DNA of 38,362 bases from Spirochaetales bacterium (GCA_012838275.1 DUPO01000158.1:1-38362), one strand, 5' to 3'; shown: positions 15,047-29,280, counted from the first letter of the stretch. A program made the numbers and translations. Notes: generated from the sequence alone by a model not told the origin.

Positions 15047-18000
15047 TCAAAGCTCGAACGCATCTCCCAGGAGAAGGTTCAGTTTGTACCCTGCCATTGT
15101 CTCTGCTTCGGTGAGAGTCTTCACATATTCCAAGGTATCGGGGATACCTCCCAATATCTGGAAAGAGAGAGCAGAGAGATAGATAGTCTCTTGGATTGCC
15201 TCCTTTTTATACCAGGTGGTCCCCTGGTACTCATTACAATTTGCATAGGTTCTCAACGCCGGGTCTGTAAGTAGGGTTGCGAGGACCTTTTGTGGTGTGT
15301 CGGTGGTAAAGGTTTCGACCATATTTGCTGCGGAAGCCAGAAGAGCCGCACTATGACAGGCTTTTCTAGCGTTATCTCCGTTGAATCCCACCTCTTCAAG
15401 TTCCTTGCCGAAGAATCGGGAGAGCAGCAACTTGTCACTTGCCACCATCGCATCGGTGACGGTGGACCACTCATGGATGAACGGCTTGAGGAACAGTGAG
15501 GCTGCTATGATGGAGGGAAGTTCGTCCATGATGACTCTTCCCTGGCTGAAATAGGGTTGCTTGGAGTCCTTTGCAAAAAGTTCCGACAGCCTTTGGACCT
15601 CCTTGAGCACGTTTGAAGGCTCGATCTCCCTCGGCTTGGAGGGCAGGGCTTTCAAGGCCACTGGGTGGAGCTGTTCCACGGCCACACCCAGGTGGGTATA
15701 GGCCTCTGCAAGGGCGAGGATCAGTTTGCGTTCGATCTTGGCTGAGGATTTTCCCTCCAGTATCGATTCAAGCAGTTTTTTGAAGGATGCCCCGTGCAGG
15801 TTCTCCATTGCCTTGAAGACAGGCTTCAGCCTCAAGGCCAGTATCTCCTGTTCGATGTTCTCTATGCCCTTGTCACCGAGGGTGTTGTAGAGCATCTCGT
15901 AGGTGCCGTCCACATCTTCAACTTCCCTGATGTTCAGCATGATTTTCGCTTCATAGCCGTTGAGGTGGAAAAATCCGCCCTCATCAAATACTTTCAGGGA
16001 GGGGACCATATAGGTCAGGTTCCCAGGGAATGCCTCATAGAGCACATACCTTCTCCCGCCTACGGTGAGGCCCATTGCTTCAGCAAGGGAGATGGTCTCT
16101 GTTCGTTTGTCTTCGCCCTGTTTCTCAAGCTTGGGAGCTGAGTTCTTTATCCATCCCTCCACGCTGTCATACTGGTTGTTGTAGAGTACCAGGGCCTTTT
16201 CATGTTCTGTCCCATTGATATAACAGAAGGCCGATTCATGCACATGGTTGTCTGCAACAAGGTCGAACAGGTAAAAATTATCCACACCGCTGAAAAGGTA
16301 GCGTTTTTTCAACAGGGGGAAGATTCTCCTGTGGTGTTCATCCACAAGCCACTGATTGGGCCTTTCGTCCCAGTAGGCCCTGCTGTACTCCATCCCGTAC
16401 TTCTCCTTGTACCCCTCAATCTGGCCATGGCCGAACATCGGCAGGCCAGGCATGGTGGCTAGGAGCGTACAGACGCCAAAGTACTTGTCCCCCTCGCCAA
16501 ACTGGGCGACGGCAGTGTCTTCATCAGGGTTGTTCATGAAGTTGACGAACCGCTTGAGAATTTCAGGTTCAAAGCTGATGGTCCCCTTGATGGTATCGCG
16601 GTATTTCTGGTTTTCCTGGTTCTTGAGCATATTCATGAATGCACTGTTGTAGACCCTGTGCATGCCCAAGGTTCGTACAAAATACCCCTCCATCATCCAG
16701 AAGGCCTCTGCTAGCAGAAGTGTGTCGGGCAGTTCTGCGCTGAGTCGGTCAACGACCTCCCTCCAGAACTCCTTGGGGATGAGAGAGTGGAACGTCGCCT
16801 CGTCAAGGCCGCTTTGGGCGCGCCCTGCAATATCGCCGCCATGACCGGGCCTTGGATACCAGAGCCTTTGGATATGCTTTTTCGCAAGGGTCATCGCAGC
16901 ATCGAAACGGATGATGGGGAAGTTTTTCGCCACGTGCTTTATCTGTTGGAAAACCGCTTCCCTGGTTGCCGGGTTGAGGAAATCAAGCTGAGCGGTATCA
17001 TTCCAGGGCATGGCGGTGCCATCGTTGCCGTGGTAGATGTATGAGGTCTCACCGCTTCTCAGGTCTTTTCTTCTGAAAGTAACAGCGGCATCACTCTGGT
17101 CGTAGTAGTGATCTTCCAGCTTGATCTCAATGTCGGGGTTCTCTGAAAGGTCTTCCCCATTGTATGTATAGGATGGGAAGGGGGGATAACTCTGTTGGAT
17201 GAAGTACTCGCTATGGTTGAAGACCCAATCCCCGTCAATTCCCGTATGGTTGGGGACCATGTCGCTGGCAAGGCGCAAACTGCGGTCAGCACATCTCTGG
17301 CGCAAGTTATCCAAAGCCGCCCACCCTCCGATGGAGGAGGCTATCTCGTAATTCTTAAGTGAGTATGCTGAGGCCTCTGCCTCAGGGTTGCCGCAGAGGT
17401 TCTTTATCCTCTTTGAAGCGCTGCTGCGCTCCCATATTCCGATCAGCCAGAGGGCGGTAAAGCCCCGTTCATGCAGGTTGTCCAGTTCCTGGTTTGGTAT
17501 CTGGTCCAAGGTGGTGATTGAGGTGTTGTACTCCTTGGAAAGCTGATCAAGCCAGACTAGGGTCGATTTGGCTATCATGACCACATTCGGCATCCAGTTG
17601 CGGTCGGCTGAGAATGCCTCATATTCAGTATCATAGGAGCTGTAGTCGGGCACGTAGGTAGGAGCGGTCCCGCTGGGGGCTCCAAAATGAGGTTTTTCCT
17701 CTTCTTTGACATAGTCTATGGCACGGAGCAGCAGCTCTTTGAGGTCTGCCGGTAACAGGTCATCCCACGCTTCCATGATGTAGTTGATCTGGTCGAGCAG
17801 GGATTCCGGGTAGAGTCTCGACGGTCTGGTGAGGAACGTGAAAATATCCTCATCACTGTTGGTCATCAGTGCGGCGCTGCGGGTATACCCACCCAGCAGG
17901 GCGGTCAAAGCTTGGGCTCCCTTGGGGAATGCCACCCCTTCAGGAGAGATGAAAGGTTTGGCAGCCTTGATCAAGGCCGGGTTGTCCAGCATTACCTGAT

Positions 18001-18364
18001 GGATAAAATATCCCCTGAGAGATTCGTCGTAAAAGAAATCCAGGGGCAGCTGCTGTTCCAGCAGCAGGGGTGAAGGGAACTCCTTCATGTAGAAGGCAAG
18101 CACATCGCCACCCGCATGATTCTTGCTCAGCAGGCTGGTGAGGCGGCTAAAGAAATCCGGTTCGGTATCGCTGAGGTAACGGGTGAGTACTGTCTGATAA
18201 AGCAGGTGCAAGACGGCGGTGGCGTGGAGTTTGCCAGCTGCGACGTACTCGCTTCCTCCGCGTTCCTTCATCTTCAGATTGTATAGGTGTGCAAGTTCGT
18301 TTGCCTGTTTATAGAGTGTTCCCAATTCAGTTGTAGAGGGAAACAGTGCGGAAAAAAAATCCAT
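15047..18364 (-). CDS. Large GH13-family (alpha-amylase-type) glycosidase
   Basis: About 1105 aa, roughly twice the usual GH13 length. An alpha-helical N-terminal region of about 270 residues precedes the (beta/alpha)8 domain, and about 300 more residues follow it. GH13 regions visible are DMVPNHTG (region I), IRFDAAMTLAK (region II, nucleophile Asp with its Arg two residues before), LLLAEAFW (region III, acid/base Glu) and NNPDED (region IV). In region IV the usual His-Asp pair reads Pro-Asp. No signal peptide is seen, so it should be cytoplasmic, perhaps acting on glycogen or maltodextrin. The track begins at a TTG (18409). The ATG at 18364 has a proper AAGGA site six bases upstream and the remaining N-terminus MDFFSALFP, so I use it. 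The exact specificity is unknown. Confidence 0.88.
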   Translation of the reverse strand: MDFFSALFPSTTELGTLYKQANELAHLYNLKMKERGGSEYVAAGKLHATAVLHLLYQTVLTRYLSDTEPDFFSRLTSLLSKNHAGGDVLAFYMKEFPSPLLLEQQLPLDFFYDESLRGYFIHQVMLDNPALIKAAKPFISPEGVAFPKGAQALTALLGGYTRSAALMTNSDEDIFTFLTRPSRLYPESLLDQINYIMEAWDDLLPADLKELLLRAIDYVKEEEKPHFGAPSGTAPTYVPDYSSYDTEYEAFSADRNWMPNVVMIAKSTLVWLDQLSKEYNTSITTLDQIPNQELDNLHERGFTALWLIGIWERSSASKRIKNLCGNPEAEASAYSLKNYEIASSIGGWAALDNLRQRCADRSLRLASDMVPNHTGIDGDWVFNHSEYFIQQSYPPFPSYTYNGEDLSENPDIEIKLEDHYYDQSDAAVTFRRKDLRSGETSYIYHGNDGTAMPWNDTAQLDFLNPATREAVFQQIKHVAKNFPIIRFDAAMTLAKKHIQRLWYPRPGHGGDIAGRAQSGLDEATFHSLIPKEFWREVVDRLSAELPDTLLLAEAFWMMEGYFVRTLGMHRVYNSAFMNMLKNQENQKYRDTIKGTISFEPEILKRFVNFMNNPDEDTAVAQFGEGDKYFGVCTLLATMPGLPMFGHGQIEGYKEKYGMEYSRAYWDERPNQWLVDEHHRRIFPLLKKRYLFSGVDNFYLFDLVADNHVHESAFCYINGTEHEKALVLYNNQYDSVEGWIKNSAPKLEKQGEDKRTETISLAEAMGLTVGGRRYVLYEAFPGNLTYMVPSLKVFDEGGFFHLNGYEAKIMLNIREVEDVDGTYEMLYNTLGDKGIENIEQEILALRLKPVFKAMENLHGASFKKLLESILEGKSSAKIERKLILALAEAYTHLGVAVEQLHPVALKALPSKPREIEPSNVLKEVQRLSELFAKDSKQPYFSQGRVIMDELPSIIAASLFLKPFIHEWSTVTDAMVASDKLLLSRFFGKELEEVGFNGDNARKACHSAALLASAANMVETFTTDTPQKVLATLLTDPALRTYANCNEYQGTTWYKKEAIQETIYLSALSFQILGGIPDTLEYVKTLTEAETMAGYKLNLLLGDAFEL

Positions 18365-18456
18365 TTCAGTCCTTGTGCGGATTGAAATGCGAAGGTCACG
18401 TGTTATCAATTAACGCCTCCCAGAGAGTGGTAGATGTCATCATCAGAGACAGGACA

Positions 18457-19077: not shown

Positions 19078-19386
19078 ATGTATGTACTAGTCTGTTATCT
19101 GCCTGAAAGTCACCTCGAGTCGGTGAAAGATGCCTTGTTCGCTTCCGGGGCGGGAGAGATGGGAGGCTATGACCGGTGTTGTTGGCAAACAAAGGGGATC
19201 GGCCAGTTTCGGCCCTCTGCCTCCAGCAATCCCTTCCTGGGGAAGAGTGGGGAACTTGCACAAGTTGAGGAGTGGCGGCTAGAATTGGTCGTCAGGGAGG
19301 AGGATGCACCCGCTGTGATGGAAGCTTTGAAACGCTCCCATCCCTACGAGGTCCCTTCGTACCATCTCATTCCGGTTGGAGTATAG
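19078..19386 (+). CDS. Stand-alone NIF3-insert-like (YqfO/CutA-fold) protein
   Basis: A 102-aa protein matching the domain found inserted in the middle of long NIF3/YqfO proteins (VCYLPESHLESVKDALFASG...GGYDRCCWQT...GQFRPS...ANPFLG-type...HPYEVPSYHLIPV). That domain has a PII/CutA-like ferredoxin fold. Here it occurs without the metal-binding NIF3 domains. The ATG has an AGGAGG site. It is the first gene of the methionine block, with the next ATG only nine bases after its stop codon. By analogy with PII or CutA it could be a regulatory or metal-binding trimer for the pathway; that role is inference from context. Confidence 0.85.
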   Translation: MYVLVCYLPESHLESVKDALFASGAGEMGGYDRCCWQTKGIGQFRPSASSNPFLGKSGELAQVEEWRLELVVREEDAPAVMEALKRSHPYEVPSYHLIPVGV

Positions 19387-19394
19387 GAGGTTTC

Positions 19395-20555
19395 ATGGCA
19401 AAGACAGTAGCGCAGATCAATGAGAAGATCAGACAGGGGAAGGTTGTGGTGGTCACAGCCGAAGAGTTCTCCCTCATGGCAACCGAGACCGATATCGAGA
19501 CTCTTGCAGAGAAGGTGGATGTCGTTACCACTGCTACCTTCGGCCCGATGTGTTCCTCCTCTGCGGTACTCAATTTCGGGCACTGGTCTCCAGGCATCAG
19601 GATGGAGGAGATCACCCTCAATGGGGTCAGCGCCTATGAAGGCCTGGCTGCTGTGGACACCCTTATCGGAGCGACGGCAGAGTCCAAGTTCGACCCGACT
19701 TATGGTGGGGCCCATGTCATTGAGGACCTGATCAGCGGCAAGGATGTACGCCTGTTTGCCAGAGGCAAAGGCACTGACTGCTATCCCACAAGGGAGATAG
19801 ATACCTGGATCAACAAGGATACCCTTAACGAGTTTTATCTGTTCAATCCCCGAAACGCCTATCAGAACTATGCAGCGGCAACCAACAGCACCAACAAGAT
19901 CAGATACACCTATATGGGAACCCTGCTTCCCCGATTCAGCAACATTACCTATTCCACCAGCGGGGAGCTCAGCCCCCTGCTCAACGACCCGTACTTGAGG
20001 AGCATAGGCCTCGGTACCAGGATCTTCCTCGGGGGGACTGAGGGGTATGTGGTTTGGAACGGGACCCAGTACAACACGTCTCGAAAGCGAAACGAGCATG
20101 GGATCCCCTTGGGGACAGGGGCGACGCTCGCTCTCATCGGCGATGCGAAGGCGATGTCATCCGAGTTCATCCGTTCAGCCTACTATGAGAAGTACGGCGT
20201 CTCCCTGTTTGTGGGAATTGGGATCCCCATCCCTGTCCTCGATCTCCAGATGGCCAGGCATTTGGCTATCAGGAACAGCCAGATAGAGACTGTTGTCAGT
20301 GATTATGGCATTGAGGGACACCCTGAGTTGGCCCGTGTCACCTATGCTGAGCTTCAGAGCGGCAAGGTAGTGCTTCCCGGAGGCAAGGAGGTAAAAAGCG
20401 CACCTCTCTCCTCCTTGAGCAAGGCGCGGGAAATTGCAAAACTGCTGCAGAGCTGGATAGAGAAAGGTGAGTTCACCCTTACAGAGCCGGTTCATCCGCT
20501 TCCAGCGAAAAGTTTTGTAAAACCTTTGGTTCCCAGGGAAGGAGGTCCGCGATGA
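19395..20555 (+). CDS. Homocysteine biosynthesis protein (COG1900/DUF39)
   Basis: A 386-aa member of the family represented by Methanosarcina acetivorans MA1821. From established work on methanogens, this family with a NIL-ferredoxin partner converts aspartate semialdehyde and sulfide to homocysteine, without O-acylhomoserine. Two cysteines in conserved-looking settings are Cys53 (FGPMCSSS) and Cys129 (GKGTDCYP), likely to carry sulfur chemistry. There are no CBS domains at the C-terminus, unlike some homologues. The ORF track starts at 19272, inside the previous gene; the ATG at 19395 has an AGGAGG site at 19385-19390 and starts MAKTVAQINEKI. Its TGA overlaps the next ATG (ATGA), so the ferredoxin is made with it. 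Confidence 0.92.
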   Translation: MAKTVAQINEKIRQGKVVVVTAEEFSLMATETDIETLAEKVDVVTTATFGPMCSSSAVLNFGHWSPGIRMEEITLNGVSAYEGLAAVDTLIGATAESKFDPTYGGAHVIEDLISGKDVRLFARGKGTDCYPTREIDTWINKDTLNEFYLFNPRNAYQNYAAATNSTNKIRYTYMGTLLPRFSNITYSTSGELSPLLNDPYLRSIGLGTRIFLGGTEGYVVWNGTQYNTSRKRNEHGIPLGTGATLALIGDAKAMSSEFIRSAYYEKYGVSLFVGIGIPIPVLDLQMARHLAIRNSQIETVVSDYGIEGHPELARVTYAELQSGKVVLPGGKEVKSAPLSSLSKAREIAKLLQSWIEKGEFTLTEPVHPLPAKSFVKPLVPREGGPR

Positions 20556-20965
20556 AGAAGCGTTATACACTCAGATTCTCTCCGACGCTTGTAGAGCAGC
20601 CTCTGGTAAGCAAGTTGGTCAGGACATATGATGTCGATATCAATATCCTTAATGCCGACGTCGCCTCCGGAAGAGGCGGGAAGCTGGTTGTAGAGTTGTC
20701 AGGATCTGAAGAAGCCCTCAAGAAGAGCGTGCTCTGGCTCAATCAGACAGGAATCATCGTCTCCGAGATGGTCAAGGAACTGAACTTCCAACAGGAGGGA
20801 TGCATCAACTGCGGTGCCTGTACGGCTGTCTGTTCCCCCAAGGCCCTCTCCATGGATAGGGATTGGAAGTTGGTCTATGACGCCGACCTCTGTGTGCTCT
20901 GCAGCCTCTGCATCCAGGCCTGTCCGATGCAGTTGTTCTCCCTATCAAACGAGCGGGAGGCATAG
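20552..20965 (+). CDS. NIL-domain 2[4Fe-4S] ferredoxin (homocysteine biosynthesis partner)
   Basis: A 137-aa two-domain protein. Residues 1-75 form a NIL domain (KKRYTLRFSPTLVEQPLVSK...), the small ferredoxin-fold domain also found at the end of methionine ABC transporter ATPases, where it binds methionine. Residues about 85-130 carry two CX2CX2CX3C clusters (CINCGACTAVCS and CVLCSLCIQACP). The first lacks the usual trailing Pro. The family counterpart is MA1822, which works with the DUF39 protein. The likely job is electron supply for sulfur reduction, possibly with methionine sensing by the NIL domain; the latter is inference. It overlaps the DUF39 stop by an ATGA junction. Confidence 0.92.
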   Translation: MKKRYTLRFSPTLVEQPLVSKLVRTYDVDINILNADVASGRGGKLVVELSGSEEALKKSVLWLNQTGIIVSEMVKELNFQQEGCINCGACTAVCSPKALSMDRDWKLVYDADLCVLCSLCIQACPMQLFSLSNEREA

Positions 20966-20968
20966 GCT

Positions 20969-21715
20969 GTGTACCAAGAGCGTGCCTACCGTAGGGGGAT
21001 GGGGTTCTCCAGGTTTTCCTCCGTCACGGTTGCGGTAGGAGAGAGCGACCTTTGGATCGGATATGCCCCCTTTAGTGTTGCACCCGATGCCCTTGTCAAA
21101 GAGAGTACGAGGGTGCTTAGAAGGCTGCGCAATGAGATACTCAACTATCCTGACTCTTTGTTTCTCTCCTCGCTCGTACCTCTCAGAAAGAGAGAGGACG
21201 GGGTTTCTCCCTTTCTTGAGGGTATGATTCGAGCAGCAAGACTCTCTGGGACCGGACCGATGGCAAGTGTGGCAGGGGCAATCGCACAGGAGGTTGGATC
21301 TGTTTTGAAGAGGAAGTTCTCCCTGGATGAAATAGTAGTGGAAAATGGCGGTGATCTGTACATCGATACCCTTAAACCATTGTCTGTTACACTTTTTGCC
21401 GGGTCTAACAAGCTTTCAGGTAAGGTTTCTATTATTGTTGACATGGAGCATTGTCCTTTGGGCGTATGCACCTCCTCCGCTAAAGTCGGCCATTCCCACA
21501 GTTTTGGCAGAGCTGACGCTGTGATGGTAGCCTGCAAGGATGCTGCCCTTGCAGACGCCTATGCGACAGCATTCTGCAATATGGTCAGAGAAGAAGCGGA
21601 TGTAGAGCGGGTCTCCCGTCTGATGAATGAAAAAGAGGAGATACTCTCCGCTCTTGTCCTACTTGATACAAAACTGGCACTCTGTGGTCAGTTGGAGGTA
21701 CGAAACAAAGCATGA
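20969..21715 (+). CDS. UPF0280 family protein, ApbE-like
   Basis: A 248-aa member of COG2122/UPF0280, starting at a GTG (MYQERAYRR, the usual family N-terminus) with GGGAGG upstream. Family signatures are GPMASVAGAIAQ, VENGGDLYI and CTSSAKVGHSHSFGRAD, which resemble the flavin/FAD-binding core of ApbE flavin transferases. In methanogens the UPF0280 gene co-occurs with the DUF39 and NIL-ferredoxin genes and has been tied to homocysteine synthesis; its biochemical step is unclear. A flavin-related role such as flavinylation or assisting sulfur transfer is inference. The TGA overlaps the metH ATG (ATGA), so the two are translationally coupled. Confidence 0.9.
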   Translation: MYQERAYRRGMGFSRFSSVTVAVGESDLWIGYAPFSVAPDALVKESTRVLRRLRNEILNYPDSLFLSSLVPLRKREDGVSPFLEGMIRAARLSGTGPMASVAGAIAQEVGSVLKRKFSLDEIVVENGGDLYIDTLKPLSVTLFAGSNKLSGKVSIIVDMEHCPLGVCTSSAKVGHSHSFGRADAVMVACKDAALADAYATAFCNMVREEADVERVSRLMNEKEEILSALVLLDTKLALCGQLEVRNKA

Positions 21716-24700
21716 ACCGAAAAGAATATTTGCATAAGATTCTCAGCGAGCGTATAGCCTTGCTCGACGGGGCGATGGGTACCATGATCCAAGCCGAAGG
21801 TTTGGACAGTGACGACTTTACCCTGGATGGGAAAACAGCATTCGGATGCAACGAGTTTCTCAACCTCAGCCGTGGTGATGTGATCTTTGGTATCCACACC
21901 GCCTACCTGGAAGCGGGAGCCGACATCATCGAGACAAATACCTTCTGTGCCAATGCCTTCAACTTGGAGGAGTATGGCCTCGCTGATGATGTCCTCGCCA
22001 TCAATCAGGCAGGTTGTGAGATAGCACGGGAAGCCGCAGCCGACTTTGAAAGCTCTCATGAGGGGTATGCCTTTGTGGCTGGGGTCATCGGTCCCACCAA
22101 CCGTAGCCTCTCCTTCTCCTCCGATGTCGGTGACCCAGCCTACCGGCAGAGTGATTTTGCCTCATTCAAGGCGATGTACACCCAGCAGGCCGAAGTGCTT
22201 CTCGATGGGAGTGTAGACCTCCTGCTCATTGAGACGGCCTTCGATACCCTTGTTGCAAAAAGTGCGATCATGGGGTGCCTTGAAGCGATGCGGACTAAAG
22301 ATCGGGAAGTCCCCCTGATGGTGAGTGCAACCTTCAGTGACCAGAGCCAACGTACCCTCAGCGGGCAGACTTTGGAGGCGTTTGTCGTCTCACTCTCCCA
22401 TTTCCCGCTCTTCTCCCTAGGACTCAACTGCTCTACAGGGCCTGAGGAGATGCTCCCTCTGATAGGGAGACTCTCCGAATTGGCACCCTTTTACATCAGT
22501 GCCCATCCGAATGCCGGCTTTCCCGACAAGGAGGGATCGTACAGTCTGAGCCCTGCCCAGTTGGCAAAGGAACTGGAGCCGGCATTGGCTCGGGGGTGTC
22601 TGAATATTGTAGGAGGGTGTTGCGGTACGACGCCCGAACATATCAGGGCCCTCTCAAAGGCGGTGCAGGGAAAGCCCGTGCATACAAGACTCGAGCGGGA
22701 TCATACCCTGCTTCTTGCCGGTTTGGAAGTTTGCCCTCTGCCAAGCGACAGGCTGTTGGTCATCGGGGAGCGCACCAATGTCGCAGGTTCCCGAAAGTTT
22801 GCCCGCCTCATCAGGGAGAAGTCGTGGGAAGAGGCTCTCTTGGTTGCGCGGACCCAGATCGAGGAGGGAGCAGATGTCATCGATCTCTGTATGGACGCTT
22901 CCATGCTTGATGCGCAAGAGAGCATGGTGAGTTTTCTCAGGCATAGGGGCAGCGACCCTTCGGTAAGTAGGGTCCCTGTCATGGTGGACTCCTCTGATTG
23001 GTCGGTCATTGAGCGCTCTTTACAGGAGATCCAGGGCCGGGGGATAGTAAATTCCATCAGTCTCAAGGAGGGAGAGGCGAAGTTTGTCGAGCGGGCGAAG
23101 CTTATCGCTTCCTACGGTTTTGCCATGGTTGTCATGCTCTTTGATGAGGAGGGGCAGGCCGATACGTATGAACGGAAGATTTCCCTGGCGAAGCGTAGCT
23201 ATAACACCCTCTTGCTTGCAGGGATACGGGCCGAGGATATCATCTTCGATTCCAACGTGCTCTCCATTGCGACAGGCATTGACGAGCACGACACCTATGC
23301 ACGTGATTTTCTGAAGGCTGTCTCTTGGATTAAAAAGAACCTTCCTCACTGCCATACCATAGGGGGCATCAGCAACCTGTCCTTCTCCTTCAGGGGGAAC
23401 GACACCTTGCGCAATGCCATGCATGCAGTGTTTCTCGACCTCTCCTCGCTGGATATGGGCATAGTCAATCCTGCAGTTAGTAGGGAGGTGGATGCAATAG
23501 ATGCAAGGACAAGGGATATCATCAAAAGAGCCCTGCTTGCCGAAGGGTCTGACCTGCCCTCAGTCAGGATGGAGCTTATCGATCTTGCCCTGGAGACAGG
23601 CGGGGAGGAAAAGAAGGGTGCGGCTAGGAAGGCAACCATTCGAAATGAGTGGAAGACCCTCCCTCCCCGGAAGCGGCTTGTGGAGGCCGTACTCAAGGGA
23701 GAGAACGGCTATCTTAAAGAGGACCTTGCCCTCCTTATTGAAGAAAATCCGCTTGCCCTGGTTGAGGGACCTCTCATGGAGGGGATGAAAAAGGTAGGTA
23801 AGCTTTTTGGGGAAGGCAAGCTATTCCTTCCCCAGGTGGTTCGTAGTGCCCGAACCATGAAAATGGCAGTTGATATCCTCCAACCCCGAATTACAGCTTA
23901 TATTGCTAGTTCAAAGGCAGTTTCAGGTAGCCATAAGAAGAAGATTGCTGTCATAGCTACGGTCAAGGGAGATGTGCACGACATTGGAAAGAACATCGTC
24001 AGTCTTATCCTTACCTGCAACAACTTTGAGGTGATCGACCTTGGGGTGATGGTTCCCAAAGAGCAGATCCTCGCAGCGGCTAAGGAGAACCATGCCGATC
24101 TTGTCGGGTTGAGCGGCCTCATTACCCCTTCGCTTCGTGAGATGGCTTCGGTGATCGGATTGTTTGAAGAGAGTGGTTGTACTATTCCTATATTTGTTGG
24201 TGGGGCGACCACCAGCGAGTTGCACACAGCTGTAAAGCTCTCCCCCCTGTATGGGGGCCCTGTCATCCAGACTAAGGACGCCTCTGCTATGGCCCTGACT
24301 GCCCAGCTGGCGGTAGGAGAGGAGCGGAAGAGCTTTTTGAGGGAACACGAGAGGCAGACCCTCAGGTTGAGAGAGAGTGAACAAGGGGCGCAACGCCCCT
24401 CTGTAAGCTTTGACTATGCATCAATCCTTGCCAAACAAGGACAGAAGGAACAAGGCAGCGTAGCAGATGAGTATGGCGTCTTTGTCATGAAGGATTTCTC
24501 CCTTCCTCTTCTGGTTGGGAAGATCAATTGGAAGATGTACTGCGCTGCATGGAAAGTCCCCTTCTTAAGTGAGGAGGGCGAAAGGTTGGTCAGTGAGGCT
24601 AAAGCGCTTTTGGAGAGACAAGAGATACAAAACCTGTTTGAACAGGGATCCAGGGTTGTATGCGGCCTTTTTCCGGCCCAAAGTGACCGTCTTGAGGTGA

Positions 24701-25233
24701 AGGTGGGCTCTTCCTCTTTCTATTTCTTGCGTAATGAGGAGAGCGGGTTCTCCCTTGCCGATGCCATCGCCAAGGAAGATACGGTGGGCCTGTTGGTCGC
24801 AACCTCAGCTTTGAAGCTGGCTGAGCATTTGAAGCATCCGGATGAGGGGTACACACACCTCGCTTTGCAACTTCTTGCTGACAGGCTTGCAGAGGTCCTC
24901 GCCGATGAGGCGGAGGCCTTCCTCAAGGAAAAGTGGGGATGTTCCTGTCCCTCATTCATCCGTCCCGCTCCGGGATACTCCTCCTGGAGCGACCATAGTG
25001 AGAAACAAACCCTGTTCGAACTGCTTGGGGCCGAGGAGAAGATCGGGGTACGTCTTACCGAAAGTTTTGCCATGGACCCTGCATCAAGTGTCTGCTCCAT
25101 GCTCATCGGAGGGGAGAACCTCCGGTATTTCGCCATTGGTAAGGTTTCTGAGGCTCAGGTTGCCCTGTATGCCCAAAAGAAGGGTATTGCAGAGGATAAG
25201 CTTGTCACGCTCCTTGCTGGTATGGAATACTAA
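21712..25233 (+). CDS. metH: Cobalamin-dependent methionine synthase, full length
   Basis: A 1173-aa cytoplasmic enzyme that transfers a methyl group from 5-methyltetrahydrofolate to homocysteine through cob(I)alamin. All four modules are present. The homocysteine domain (about 1-310) has Zn ligands in GLNCS (about 239) and GGCCGTT (about 301). The pterin-binding domain (from about 345) begins at GERTNVAGSRKF. The B12 cap and Rossmann domains carry the axial His in DVHDIGKN (about 754). The C-terminal AdoMet-activation domain (from about 920) contains RPAPGYSSW and ends near residue 1173. E. coli MetH is 1227 aa. No reading-frame damage is seen. It is coupled to UPF0280 upstream and followed by metF after four bases, so the homocysteine made by the upstream proteins can be methylated directly. 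Confidence 0.97.
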   Translation: MNRKEYLHKILSERIALLDGAMGTMIQAEGLDSDDFTLDGKTAFGCNEFLNLSRGDVIFGIHTAYLEAGADIIETNTFCANAFNLEEYGLADDVLAINQAGCEIAREAAADFESSHEGYAFVAGVIGPTNRSLSFSSDVGDPAYRQSDFASFKAMYTQQAEVLLDGSVDLLLIETAFDTLVAKSAIMGCLEAMRTKDREVPLMVSATFSDQSQRTLSGQTLEAFVVSLSHFPLFSLGLNCSTGPEEMLPLIGRLSELAPFYISAHPNAGFPDKEGSYSLSPAQLAKELEPALARGCLNIVGGCCGTTPEHIRALSKAVQGKPVHTRLERDHTLLLAGLEVCPLPSDRLLVIGERTNVAGSRKFARLIREKSWEEALLVARTQIEEGADVIDLCMDASMLDAQESMVSFLRHRGSDPSVSRVPVMVDSSDWSVIERSLQEIQGRGIVNSISLKEGEAKFVERAKLIASYGFAMVVMLFDEEGQADTYERKISLAKRSYNTLLLAGIRAEDIIFDSNVLSIATGIDEHDTYARDFLKAVSWIKKNLPHCHTIGGISNLSFSFRGNDTLRNAMHAVFLDLSSLDMGIVNPAVSREVDAIDARTRDIIKRALLAEGSDLPSVRMELIDLALETGGEEKKGAARKATIRNEWKTLPPRKRLVEAVLKGENGYLKEDLALLIEENPLALVEGPLMEGMKKVGKLFGEGKLFLPQVVRSARTMKMAVDILQPRITAYIASSKAVSGSHKKKIAVIATVKGDVHDIGKNIVSLILTCNNFEVIDLGVMVPKEQILAAAKENHADLVGLSGLITPSLREMASVIGLFEESGCTIPIFVGGATTSELHTAVKLSPLYGGPVIQTKDASAMALTAQLAVGEERKSFLREHERQTLRLRESEQGAQRPSVSFDYASILAKQGQKEQGSVADEYGVFVMKDFSLPLLVGKINWKMYCAAWKVPFLSEEGERLVSEAKALLERQEIQNLFEQGSRVVCGLFPAQSDRLEVKVGSSSFYFLRNEESGFSLADAIAKEDTVGLLVATSALKLAEHLKHPDEGYTHLALQLLADRLAEVLADEAEAFLKEKWGCSCPSFIRPAPGYSSWSDHSEKQTLFELLGAEEKIGVRLTESFAMDPASSVCSMLIGGENLRYFAIGKVSEAQVALYAQKKGIAEDKLVTLLAGMEY

Positions 25234-25237
25234 GTGT

Positions 25238-26191
25238 ATGAAAGTCATAGATATCCTTAATCGGGCCAAGAAGCCCTTGTTTACGTTCGAACTGGTTCCT
25301 CCCTTGAAGGGAGGGAATGCTGAAGTGCTTCTGGATACGGTCCGATCACTGAGCCTTTTTGAGCCAGCGTACATCAACGTTACCAACCACCAGGCTGAGG
25401 TAGTCTACAACGAGCGTCCCGACGGTCTGCTCGAACGGCGTATTGTACGTAAACGTCCGGGCACCATCGCCCTCTCATCCCTCATCCAGCATACCTTCAA
25501 CATACCGGTGGTCGCCCACCTTATCTGTGGGGGGATGCAGAGCGAGGAGATTGAAGATGCGCTGTTGGAGCTCAACTTCTTGGGTATCAAGAATGTCCTC
25601 GCCCTCCGAGGCGATCCCCCGCAGGGGCAGAAGCGGTTCGTACCGATTAAGGGGGGGCACCAGTACTCCAGTGATATGGTGAAGCAGATAGACAACCTCA
25701 ACCAGGGCATCTATCTGGATGAGGCCCTGGTCAATGGGGAGAAGACAGACTTCTGTATCGGTGTCGCCGGGTATCCGGAGAAACACGCGGAGGCTGCAAA
25801 CCGCATCACTGATATGGAACACCTGAAGCATAAGGTTGCCTGCGGAGCTGAATATATCGTGACCCAGATGTTCTTCGACAACAGTGTCTACTACAGGTTT
25901 GTCGAGGAGTGTCGTCAGAATGGCATCACCGTACCCATAATTCCCGGAATCAAGCCGATCGGCAGCAAGCGGGACCTTGCCACCATTCCCCAGACATTCC
26001 ATGTCGACTTTCCCCCTGAGTTGGTCGATCTGCTGCATAGGGCAAAGAAACTCTCCGAAGTGAAGGAAGTTGGAGTATACTGGAGCAAGAAGCAGGCGAA
26101 GGACCTGATCGAACATAAAGTTCCCGGTGTCCATTTCTATACACTGGGAAAGGCTGAGGCTGTTTCCCAGGTTGTAAGAGATGTCTATTGA
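25238..26191 (+). CDS. metF: Methylenetetrahydrofolate reductase
   Basis: A 317-aa flavoprotein that reduces 5,10-methylene-THF to 5-methyl-THF, the methyl donor for MetH. Family blocks are FTFELVPPLKGG at the N-terminus, NVTNHQAEV, ALRGDPP, IGVAGYPEKHAEA, QMFFDN and PIIPGIKP. The ORF track starts at 24842 inside metH; the real start is the ATG at 25238, four bases after the metH stop. Its ribosome binding site is weak, so translational coupling to metH is likely. It completes the methyl branch of the pathway in this operon. Confidence 0.95.
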   Translation: MKVIDILNRAKKPLFTFELVPPLKGGNAEVLLDTVRSLSLFEPAYINVTNHQAEVVYNERPDGLLERRIVRKRPGTIALSSLIQHTFNIPVVAHLICGGMQSEEIEDALLELNFLGIKNVLALRGDPPQGQKRFVPIKGGHQYSSDMVKQIDNLNQGIYLDEALVNGEKTDFCIGVAGYPEKHAEAANRITDMEHLKHKVACGAEYIVTQMFFDNSVYYRFVEECRQNGITVPIIPGIKPIGSKRDLATIPQTFHVDFPPELVDLLHRAKKLSEVKEVGVYWSKKQAKDLIEHKVPGVHFYTLGKAEAVSQVVRDVY

Positions 26192-26214: not shown

Positions 26215-26637
26215 ATGGCTGAAACGAGTAAGGTTAATAAAAAAAGCAGTGCATTTGTATTGAGGCTTGTCATCTCTTTGCTGTATATCAGCATAGGGCT
26301 TCAGGGCCTCATCTCTCGTGGAGGCAGTTCTGGTATCGGAGCGCTCTATAAGGCGTTCAGCAGCGATGTGATAATCTATCTGGTGGCTGTCGTCGTTATG
26401 TTGGGTGGCCTTGTAATGCTGATCCCGCTGTTTACGAACAAGCTTTCAGGTGTATTTGTCAAAGCTGGTACCATTGCCGTATTGGTCATCTGGATAGCAG
26501 CGATCTTCTTCGCGGATATCGCTCCGGGGTTCCGTGGGTTCAGGGCAGAGCACTGGATCTCCTGGGTCGAGAGCGTCATGTTCCACCTGATTGTTCTTAT
26601 TGCAACGTTTGAGGTTTCAAAGAAAGCCTTAGCGTGA
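26215..26637 (+). CDS. Small four-helix membrane protein, unknown function
   Basis: A 140-aa hydrophobic protein with about four transmembrane helices and the loosely conserved look of DoxX/YphA-type small membrane proteins (LRLVISLLYISIGLQGLI at the N-terminus). I cannot assign a function. The ORF track starts at a TTG (26188); the ATG at 26215 has a clear AAAGGAG site eight bases upstream. It follows metF by 23 bases and is probably the last gene of that operon. Its 3' end overlaps the 3' end of nth by nine bases. Confidence 0.8.
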   Translation: MAETSKVNKKSSAFVLRLVISLLYISIGLQGLISRGGSSGIGALYKAFSSDVIIYLVAVVVMLGGLVMLIPLFTNKLSGVFVKAGTIAVLVIWIAAIFFADIAPGFRGFRAEHWISWVESVMFHLIVLIATFEVSKKALA

Positions 26638-27369: not shown

Positions 27370-29280
27370 ATGATAATCGTACTAAAGAAAAACATATCTG
27401 AAGTGCAACAAGAGCACATCAGGGCCTTCTTGGTTGGCAAGGGTTACACTGTCAAGGAAATCGTCGGACAGGAAGAGACTGTCATTGGGGCCGTAGGCCA
27501 GAGTTCACTCGACCTTCGTGAGGTTGAGTTGCTCGAAGGGGTGGCGAAGGTCATTCCCATCAGCAAGCCCTACAAGCTCGCCTCCCGGGAACTGAAGAAA
27601 GAGGACACCATCGTCACCGTCGGAAAGGTGAAGATCGGGGGCAACCGAGTCGCCATCATTGCAGGGCCTTGTGCAATTGAGAGCCGCACCCAGATCATGG
27701 AGATTGCCCGGGCTGTGCGAGATGCAGGGGCGGTCATCCTACGCGGCGGTGCGTTCAAGCCACGGACATCCCCCTATGCTTTCCAAGGCATGGGCGAGGA
27801 GGGGCTGAAATATCTCAAGGAAGCGGGCGAGAAGTACGGTCTGCCTGTTACAAGTGAGATAGTCAATCCCAGTGATGTCGACATGATGGCCAGATATATA
27901 GACATGTTCCAGATCGGGGCGCGTAACATGCAGAACTTCGAGCTGTTGAAGGCTGTCGGGAAGACCGGCATGCCGGTCCTGCTCAAGCGCGGTCTCAGCG
28001 CCACCATCGAAGAGTGGCTGATGGCTGCCGAGTACCTCATGGCAAGTGGCACTGACCAGATAGTGTTGTGTGAACGGGGCATCCGTACCTACGAACGGGC
28101 TACCCGCAACACCCTCGATTGCAGTGCCGTCCCTGTTATCCAGAAAATGACCCACCTGCCGATCATCGGCGACCCCAGCCATGCCACCGGTATCCGGGAC
28201 ATGGTCAGTCCGATGAGCCTTGCCCTGGTTGCAAGCGGTGCCTCCGGCCTTATGGTCGAGGTGCACAACCATCCTGAAAAGGCCTTCAGTGATGGCCCCC
28301 AATCACTCTTTCCCTCCCAGTTTGAGACCTTGATGCGTGACCTGCACGCCCTCTGCCCTGTGGTAGGGAAGTCATTGGAAAGGATTCCCCTCACTCTTCC
28401 TTCTGTAAAGAAAGAGGGTGCAAAGGGGAAAAAAGCTTCTTCTCTTACTGTTGCCTTCCAGGGCGAGCGGGGAGCGTTCAGCGAACTCGCCATCAGGCGA
28501 TCCTTCGATGAGAGTGCCATAGCTCTTCCTTGTAAGCAGTTTGGTGATATCTTCGAAGCTCTGATGGGAGGAGAGGCTACCTATGGCATGATACCCTTGG
28601 AGAATACCTTGGGAGGAACCATCTTCGATACGCTGGATCTGCTTGACCGCTACCCTGACATCCAGGTGGTAGGGGAGCAACAGATCAGGATAGTGCATAA
28701 CCTCATTACCCTTCCCGGAACCAAGTTGGAGGATATCAGGAAGGTCTACTCCCACCCACAGGGCCTAGCCCAGTGTGTGGATTACCTTCGCAGCGAGCTT
28801 GCCCATGCTGAAGCGATTCCCTTTTTCGATACTGCCGGTGCGGTAAGCTTTGTAAAGGCTTCCAATGACAAGACACTCGCTGCCATCGCAGGGTCTCCTG
28901 CTGCAGCTGTCCATGAGATGGAGATACTTGCAGAAGGTATTGAGAGCAACCCCCGAAACTACACCAGGTTCTATATCCTCTGCAAAGAGGATATGGCTGG
29001 GGCTTACAGGTCCCTCTCCCCGGTCAATCGCGCCTCGCTCAGGTTCACCGTCAGTGACCGTCCCGGTTCCCTCTTCGAAGCCTTGTTGGTCCTTACCAAA
29101 CATGGGCTCAACATGAAGAAGCTGGAGTCCCGTCCAATACCGGGCAAGCCTTGGGAGTACTCTTTCTTTGTCGAGACGGAACTTGGACAAGATGCGGGCT
29201 CCTTCGAGCATGCCCTGGAAGAGCTGAAGGATTGTTGTGCGTCGGTAAGAGTCCTGGGGACCTATACGGCAGGTATCTGA
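27370..29280 (+). CDS. Fused DAHP synthase - prephenate dehydratase with ACT domain
   Basis: A 636-aa fusion of the first step of the shikimate pathway and the second-last step of phenylalanine synthesis. Residues 1-70 form a ferredoxin-like regulatory domain as in Thermotoga-type DAHP synthase. Residues about 75-340 form the class I-beta DAHP synthase barrel (AGPCAIES, GGAFKPRTSPYAFQG, QIGARNMQN, DPSHATG). After a linker rich in Lys and Ser, residues about 357-545 form prephenate dehydratase (VAFQGERGAFSE, GMIPLENTLGGT, NYTRF). Residues about 560-630 form an ACT domain with the Phe-binding ESRP motif. No chorismate mutase domain is present. There is no Shine-Dalgarno at the ATG. The next gene starts after one base. 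Confidence 0.95.
   Translation: MIIVLKKNISEVQQEHIRAFLVGKGYTVKEIVGQEETVIGAVGQSSLDLREVELLEGVAKVIPISKPYKLASRELKKEDTIVTVGKVKIGGNRVAIIAGPCAIESRTQIMEIARAVRDAGAVILRGGAFKPRTSPYAFQGMGEEGLKYLKEAGEKYGLPVTSEIVNPSDVDMMARYIDMFQIGARNMQNFELLKAVGKTGMPVLLKRGLSATIEEWLMAAEYLMASGTDQIVLCERGIRTYERATRNTLDCSAVPVIQKMTHLPIIGDPSHATGIRDMVSPMSLALVASGASGLMVEVHNHPEKAFSDGPQSLFPSQFETLMRDLHALCPVVGKSLERIPLTLPSVKKEGAKGKKASSLTVAFQGERGAFSELAIRRSFDESAIALPCKQFGDIFEALMGGEATYGMIPLENTLGGTIFDTLDLLDRYPDIQVVGEQQIRIVHNLITLPGTKLEDIRKVYSHPQGLAQCVDYLRSELAHAEAIPFFDTAGAVSFVKASNDKTLAAIAGSPAAAVHEMEILAEGIESNPRNYTRFYILCKEDMAGAYRSLSPVNRASLRFTVSDRPGSLFEALLVLTKHGLNMKKLESRPIPGKPWEYSFFVETELGQDAGSFEHALEELKDCCASVRVLGTYTAGI

Follow-up and report, generated by a model that had tools for sequence, protein, structure and literature searches.

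A spirochaete operon for a predicted sulfide-to-methionine route that lies alongside O-acetylhomoserine sulfhydrylation

Known homocysteine systems and the spirochaete operon

In Desulfovibrio vulgaris, homocysteine formation does not pass through homoserine and requires a DUF39 protein, an NIL/ferredoxin protein and a COG2122 protein (PMC5764234). Price et al. reported that the fitness of COG2122 tracks that of DUF39 in this bacterium (r = 0.98) and predicted the same pathway in Dehalococcoides (PMC5764234). In D. vulgaris Miyazaki the three families are encoded by DvMF_1464 (DUF39), DvMF_0262 (NIL/ferredoxin) and DvMF_0044 (COG2122), which stand at distant locus numbers, and the homocysteine goes to a B12-dependent MetH without an activation domain (PMC5764234). 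The methanogen enzyme is named L-aspartate semialdehyde sulfurtransferase (L-ASST); that of M. acetivorans is MA1821-22, in which Cys54 and Cys131 are conserved and Cys54 is essential (PMC12068725). The M. acetivorans system, MA1821-MA1822 and MA1715, likewise comprises a COG1900a protein with two conserved cysteines, an NIL-ferredoxin and a UPF0280 protein (PMC12068725, and Rauch 2014 and 2016 as cited in it and in PMC8351635). The earlier note on this DNA was right about the three families but described them as known from methanogens, whereas they are also bacterial and have been shown genetically in Desulfovibrio, COG2122 included (PMC5764234). The pathway is already known, bacteria included, and the operon described here is another instance of it.

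The window, i.e., the whole stretch of 38,362 nucleotides analysed, comes from a Sphaerochaeta-type spirochaete (genome G000). Family matches bore out the six genes read earlier at 19078-26191, all on the + strand: a COG3323-type gene, DUF39/HcyBio, NIL-ferredoxin, UPF0280 (COG2122), a five-domain metH and metF. The entire proposed sulfide-to-methionine chain is thus physically together in one bacterial operon, in contrast to D. vulgaris Miyazaki, where the three genes stand at distant locus numbers and MetH is without the activation domain. The first gene (19078-19386, +), described before as NIF3-like, is indeed NIF3-related, but it encodes a stand-alone PII-like NIF3-insert protein of 102 aa that resembles residues 164-260 of the NIF3-related structure PDB 2gx8 (E 1.5e-18), with a CutA1 Pfam match barely above the cut-off. 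Identification as a NIF3 enzyme was rejected, as the PII-like insert domain alone was matched and the enzyme body is absent.

The DUF39/HcyBio gene (19395-20555, +) encodes the predicted catalytic subunit of L-aspartate semialdehyde sulfurtransferase, and its match to PF01837 (E 6.9e-144) spans the full profile, positions 1-349 of 349. Among 63 aligned sequences, no cysteines other than Cys53 and Cys129 are invariant; by position number, the M. acetivorans sequence standing outside the alignment, this pair is in line with Cys54 and Cys131 of M. acetivorans. The archaeal COG1900 subunit has at its C terminus a CBS domain described as a SAM sensor, while Pfam gave no CBS match in the window protein. 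The AlphaFold model of DUF39 has a mean pLDDT of 94.6, and a Foldseek search against the PDB returned no meaningful match (best probability 0.06), so that the fold, which in this model looks undescribed among solved structures, gives no functional clue. The next gene (20552-20965, +) encodes an NIL domain (PF09383, E 7e-17) and two [4Fe-4S] motifs with Fer4 matches, the predicted electron-donating partner, whose eight cysteines are invariant in 62 sequences. Its NIL domain matches that of MetN (2qrr) and probably senses methionine. In three loci, L116 and L118 (Thermotogota) and L123, DUF39 adjoins UPF0280 and no NIL-ferredoxin match was found in the flank; the DUF39 ORF of L116 and L118, about 440 aa, is longer than that of the window.

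UPF0280 (20969-21715, +) starts with GTG and has an ApbE-like fold; its best NCBIfam model is PRK04334.1-3 (E 6e-63), at a score under the model's own cut-off. The metH gene (21712-25233, +) encodes a cobalamin-dependent methionine synthase (TIGR02082, 1120.8 bits against a cut-off of 1010.85) with all five domains recognized by Pfam, namely homocysteine, pterin, cap, B12 and activation (reactivation); the Zn-ligand cysteines Cys240, Cys303 and Cys304 and His756 of the DxHxxG motif are invariant in the alignment. The metF gene (25238-26191, +) encodes methylenetetrahydrofolate reductase (TIGR00676, 294.8 bits against 293.7). A small ORF of 140 aa without a Pfam match (26215-26637, +) starts 23 nt after metF; it may be the last gene of the operon and is present in only some relatives.

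The arrangement was compared with 20 loci fetched from the same family. The COG3323, DUF39 and NIL-ferredoxin genes follow in identical order in all 20, the COG3323 gene first, and MetH and MetF lie downstream wherever the contig extends that far. The order COG3323-DUF39-NIL/Fd-(UPF0280)-MetH-MetF is common to the loci of the Sphaerochaeta genus and of two further genera of its family, g14 and g17, and such recurrence shows that the arrangement is not due to chance. Both ATGA overlaps noticed before are real, DUF39/ferredoxin at 20552-20555 (+) and UPF0280/metH at 21712-21715 (+). The former 4-nt overlap is found in 20 of 20 relatives' loci, the latter besides the window in only four (L067, L070, L081 and L086), most others having a gap of 1-2 nt; the DUF39-ferredoxin coupling is therefore under constraint and the UPF0280/metH ATGA is incidental.

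O-acetylhomoserine sulfhydrylation in the same genome and genus

The earlier note predicted a methionine route that bypasses homoserine acylation and trans-sulfuration. The assignment of the pathway is well supported, but the route is not exclusive, since genome G000 (2.36 Mb, 95% complete, 4% contamination) also has MetA, MetY and homoserine dehydrogenase, whereas no well-characterized methionine route is apparent in D. vulgaris Miyazaki. Contig C161 (G000:C161:1-1934, L066) opens partway through metY, with metA next to it. MetA passes the cut-off of NF047918, an acetyl-type model; MetY matches TIGR01326 best and falls slightly short of the cut-off because the contig end removes the 5' end of metY, which is intact in relatives. 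Homoserine dehydrogenase is encoded on contig C143. MetX was searched for in G000 and is absent, and in G091 the same search gave one weak match, far below the cut-off. We rejected contamination as the origin of C161: identity to G106 is 90% for MetY and 86% for MetA, as against 59-74% to other members, and the window's operon too has G106 as its nearest relative. The adjacency of metY and metA is seen in most genomes of the genus.

Among 26 genomes of the genus, DUF39 was found in 23, MetA in 23 and both in 20. MetY/MetA without DUF39 occurs in G099, G103 and G105, and DUF39 without detected MetA in G097, G098 and G112, whose assemblies are only 80-86% complete. The two routes thus commonly coexist in one genus, and finding DUF39 in a genome should not lead to the conclusion that the classical route is missing. 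DUF39 is also present in G116, a 99% complete genome from outside the genus, in which the searches found no MetA, no MetX and no full-strength PF01053 match or convincing MetY; it is the only genome with DUF39 and without all three, and the operon route is the only known homocysteine route detected in it. In G082, likewise outside the genus, DUF39 is present without MetA or MetX, and the one PF01053 enzyme resembles other lyases or racemases.

The operon very probably encodes a methionine route that works alongside, not instead of, the O-acetylhomoserine route of MetA and MetY. By analogy with the work on M. acetivorans and D. vulgaris, DUF39 would convert aspartate semialdehyde and sulfide to homocysteine with electrons supplied by the NIL-ferredoxin, UPF0280 may help to deliver or prepare the sulfur, and MetH would methylate the homocysteine with methyl-tetrahydrofolate from MetF. 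The MetA/MetY route likewise leads from sulfide to homocysteine, but via homoserine and O-acetylhomoserine, by unrelated enzymes and from a separate locus, and it could supply all homocysteine in this genome. How the two routes share the labour might plausibly depend on the amount of sulfide supplied, on redox state or on feedback by methionine via the NIL domain. The presence of MetA/MetY and homoserine dehydrogenase weakens the bypass, which is possible but not exclusive here, and points to a second route rather than a replacement. A complete acyl-homoserine pathway, together with no growth effect when the DUF39 or ferredoxin gene is lost, had been named in advance as counter-evidence to the bypass; the genomic half of this is what we found, with metA and metY present and metX absent. 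It is possible, though rather unlikely, that the operon serves as the main route, with MetA/MetY minor or conditional, e.g., when O-acetylhomoserine is high or for other thiols, so that the bypass holds in practice. The genes do lie in one operon with metH and metF, and MetA and MetX are lacking in G116 and perhaps also in G112, a less complete genome; yet three genomes of the genus keep MetY/MetA and no DUF39, and most keep both.

UPF0280 and its loss in one Sphaerochaeta clade

UPF0280 resembles PDB 2o34 (DVU1097, DUF375) with an HMM E value of 2e-40. Its AlphaFold model has a mean pLDDT of 95.1 and aligns by Foldseek to 2o34 at TM 0.80, followed by the ApbE/Ftp flavin transferases; a relation to ApbE had been stated in the literature from sequence. 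In 96 sequences, Asp196 is invariant, Thr200 is present in 97% and Cys167 is near-invariant (95%). Cys167 is replaced in five rows, by Ala in L067 (7913-8647, genome G082) and L081 (5621-6349), by Ser in L144, by Ala with a shifted Cys in L174, and in L114, which is on the same contig as L081. The genomes G082 and G095 are among those with Cys167 replaced.

In a survey of 80 UPF0280 loci from GTDB genomes, DUF39 lies within the fetched flank of 45, mostly as DUF39-NIL/Fd-UPF0280. For the other 35 loci, 34 genomes were searched and DUF39 was found elsewhere in 32; in total, 77 of the 79 UPF0280-bearing genomes examined have DUF39 as well. MetH stands directly 3' of UPF0280 in Sphaerochaetaceae, in two further Spirochaetota loci (L110 and L112) and in five Bacteroidota loci (L108, L109, L113, L115 and L121), while in most Clostridia-type loci UPF0280 adjoins DUF39/NIL-Fd without metH. 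The adjacency to MetH is recurrent, and the general tie of UPF0280 is to DUF39. The physical coupling of UPF0280 to MetH had been taken as a functional hint; the adjacency does recur in two phyla, but because the overlap is not conserved and UPF0280 tracks DUF39, the link is best read as one pathway within one operon.

UPF0280 was not found anywhere in the assemblies of G091, G092 and G102, of which G091 and G092 are single-contig and 99% complete; 49-174 nt stand in its place. In a tree of DUF39 and MetH (25 rows, quick method), these three genomes group with 100% SH-aLRT and are nested among UPF0280-bearing genomes, one change on the tree, which indicates a single loss. Among the three, DUF39 has dN 0.032-0.047 and dS 0.82-1.82, and the ferredoxin dN 0.041-0.047 and dS 0.83-1.61, the larger dS values being near saturation; both genes are under strong purifying selection. 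All three genomes have MetY/MetA. From this constraint and the presence of MetY/MetA, the DUF39 pair appears to retain its use in the absence of UPF0280, at least in genomes that have a second route. The loss fits a conditional requirement, as in M. acetivorans, better than a strict one, as in D. vulgaris. Remnants of UPF0280 were sought in the three scars, and in two of them the metH frame contains a 'LEV' that resembles the C terminus; it overlaps a ribosome-binding site and is suggestive only.

We tentatively consider, at somewhat less than even chances, that UPF0280 is accessory rather than core: the DUF39-ferredoxin pair of this clade would work without it, on sulfide directly or on another donor, and UPF0280, with its ApbE fold and Cys167, would matter mainly when the route is the sole or the low-sulfide source of homocysteine. 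The loss in G091, G092 and G102 is the most useful new point, a natural knockout that bears on the role of UPF0280, and together with G116, where the operon is the sole detected route, and the Cys167 replacements in G082 and G095, it provides natural contrasts that make this role testable. It is very unlikely that UPF0280 acts on MetH, e.g., on its cobalamin or activation, rather than on the DUF39 step; the metH adjacency in Spirochaetota and Bacteroidota and the flavin-transferase-like fold would suit such a role, but they are outweighed by the Clostridia-type loci without metH, by the genome-wide co-occurrence with DUF39, and by D. vulgaris, where the fitness of COG2122 matches DUF39 and MetH has no activation domain (PMC5764234). 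Least credible of all is the production of another, coenzyme-M-like thiol by the DUF39 unit, which is suggested by the inclusion of the coenzyme M synthase MMP16 in COG1900 (PMC12068725) and by a weak match of the window protein to TIGR03287, but this match reaches 129.8 bits against a cut-off of 363.95, on which DUF39 was rejected as coenzyme M synthase (methanogenesis marker 16), and the protein has the L-ASST-type cysteine pair in an operon with metH and metF.

Regulatory elements and neighbouring genes

Rfam searches of the window, the MetA/MetY loci and the operon loci of ten relatives gave no riboswitch at these operons; the sole match was a fluoride riboswitch at 3244-3308 of L089, near the MetY/MetA locus of G094. 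Promoter and terminator scans gave matches at chance level. Elsewhere in the window, positions 15047-18409 encode a protein of 1120 aa in which long unassigned stretches flank an alpha-amylase domain, and positions 27370-29280 form a single ORF in which DAHP synthase, prephenate dehydratase and an ACT domain are fused.
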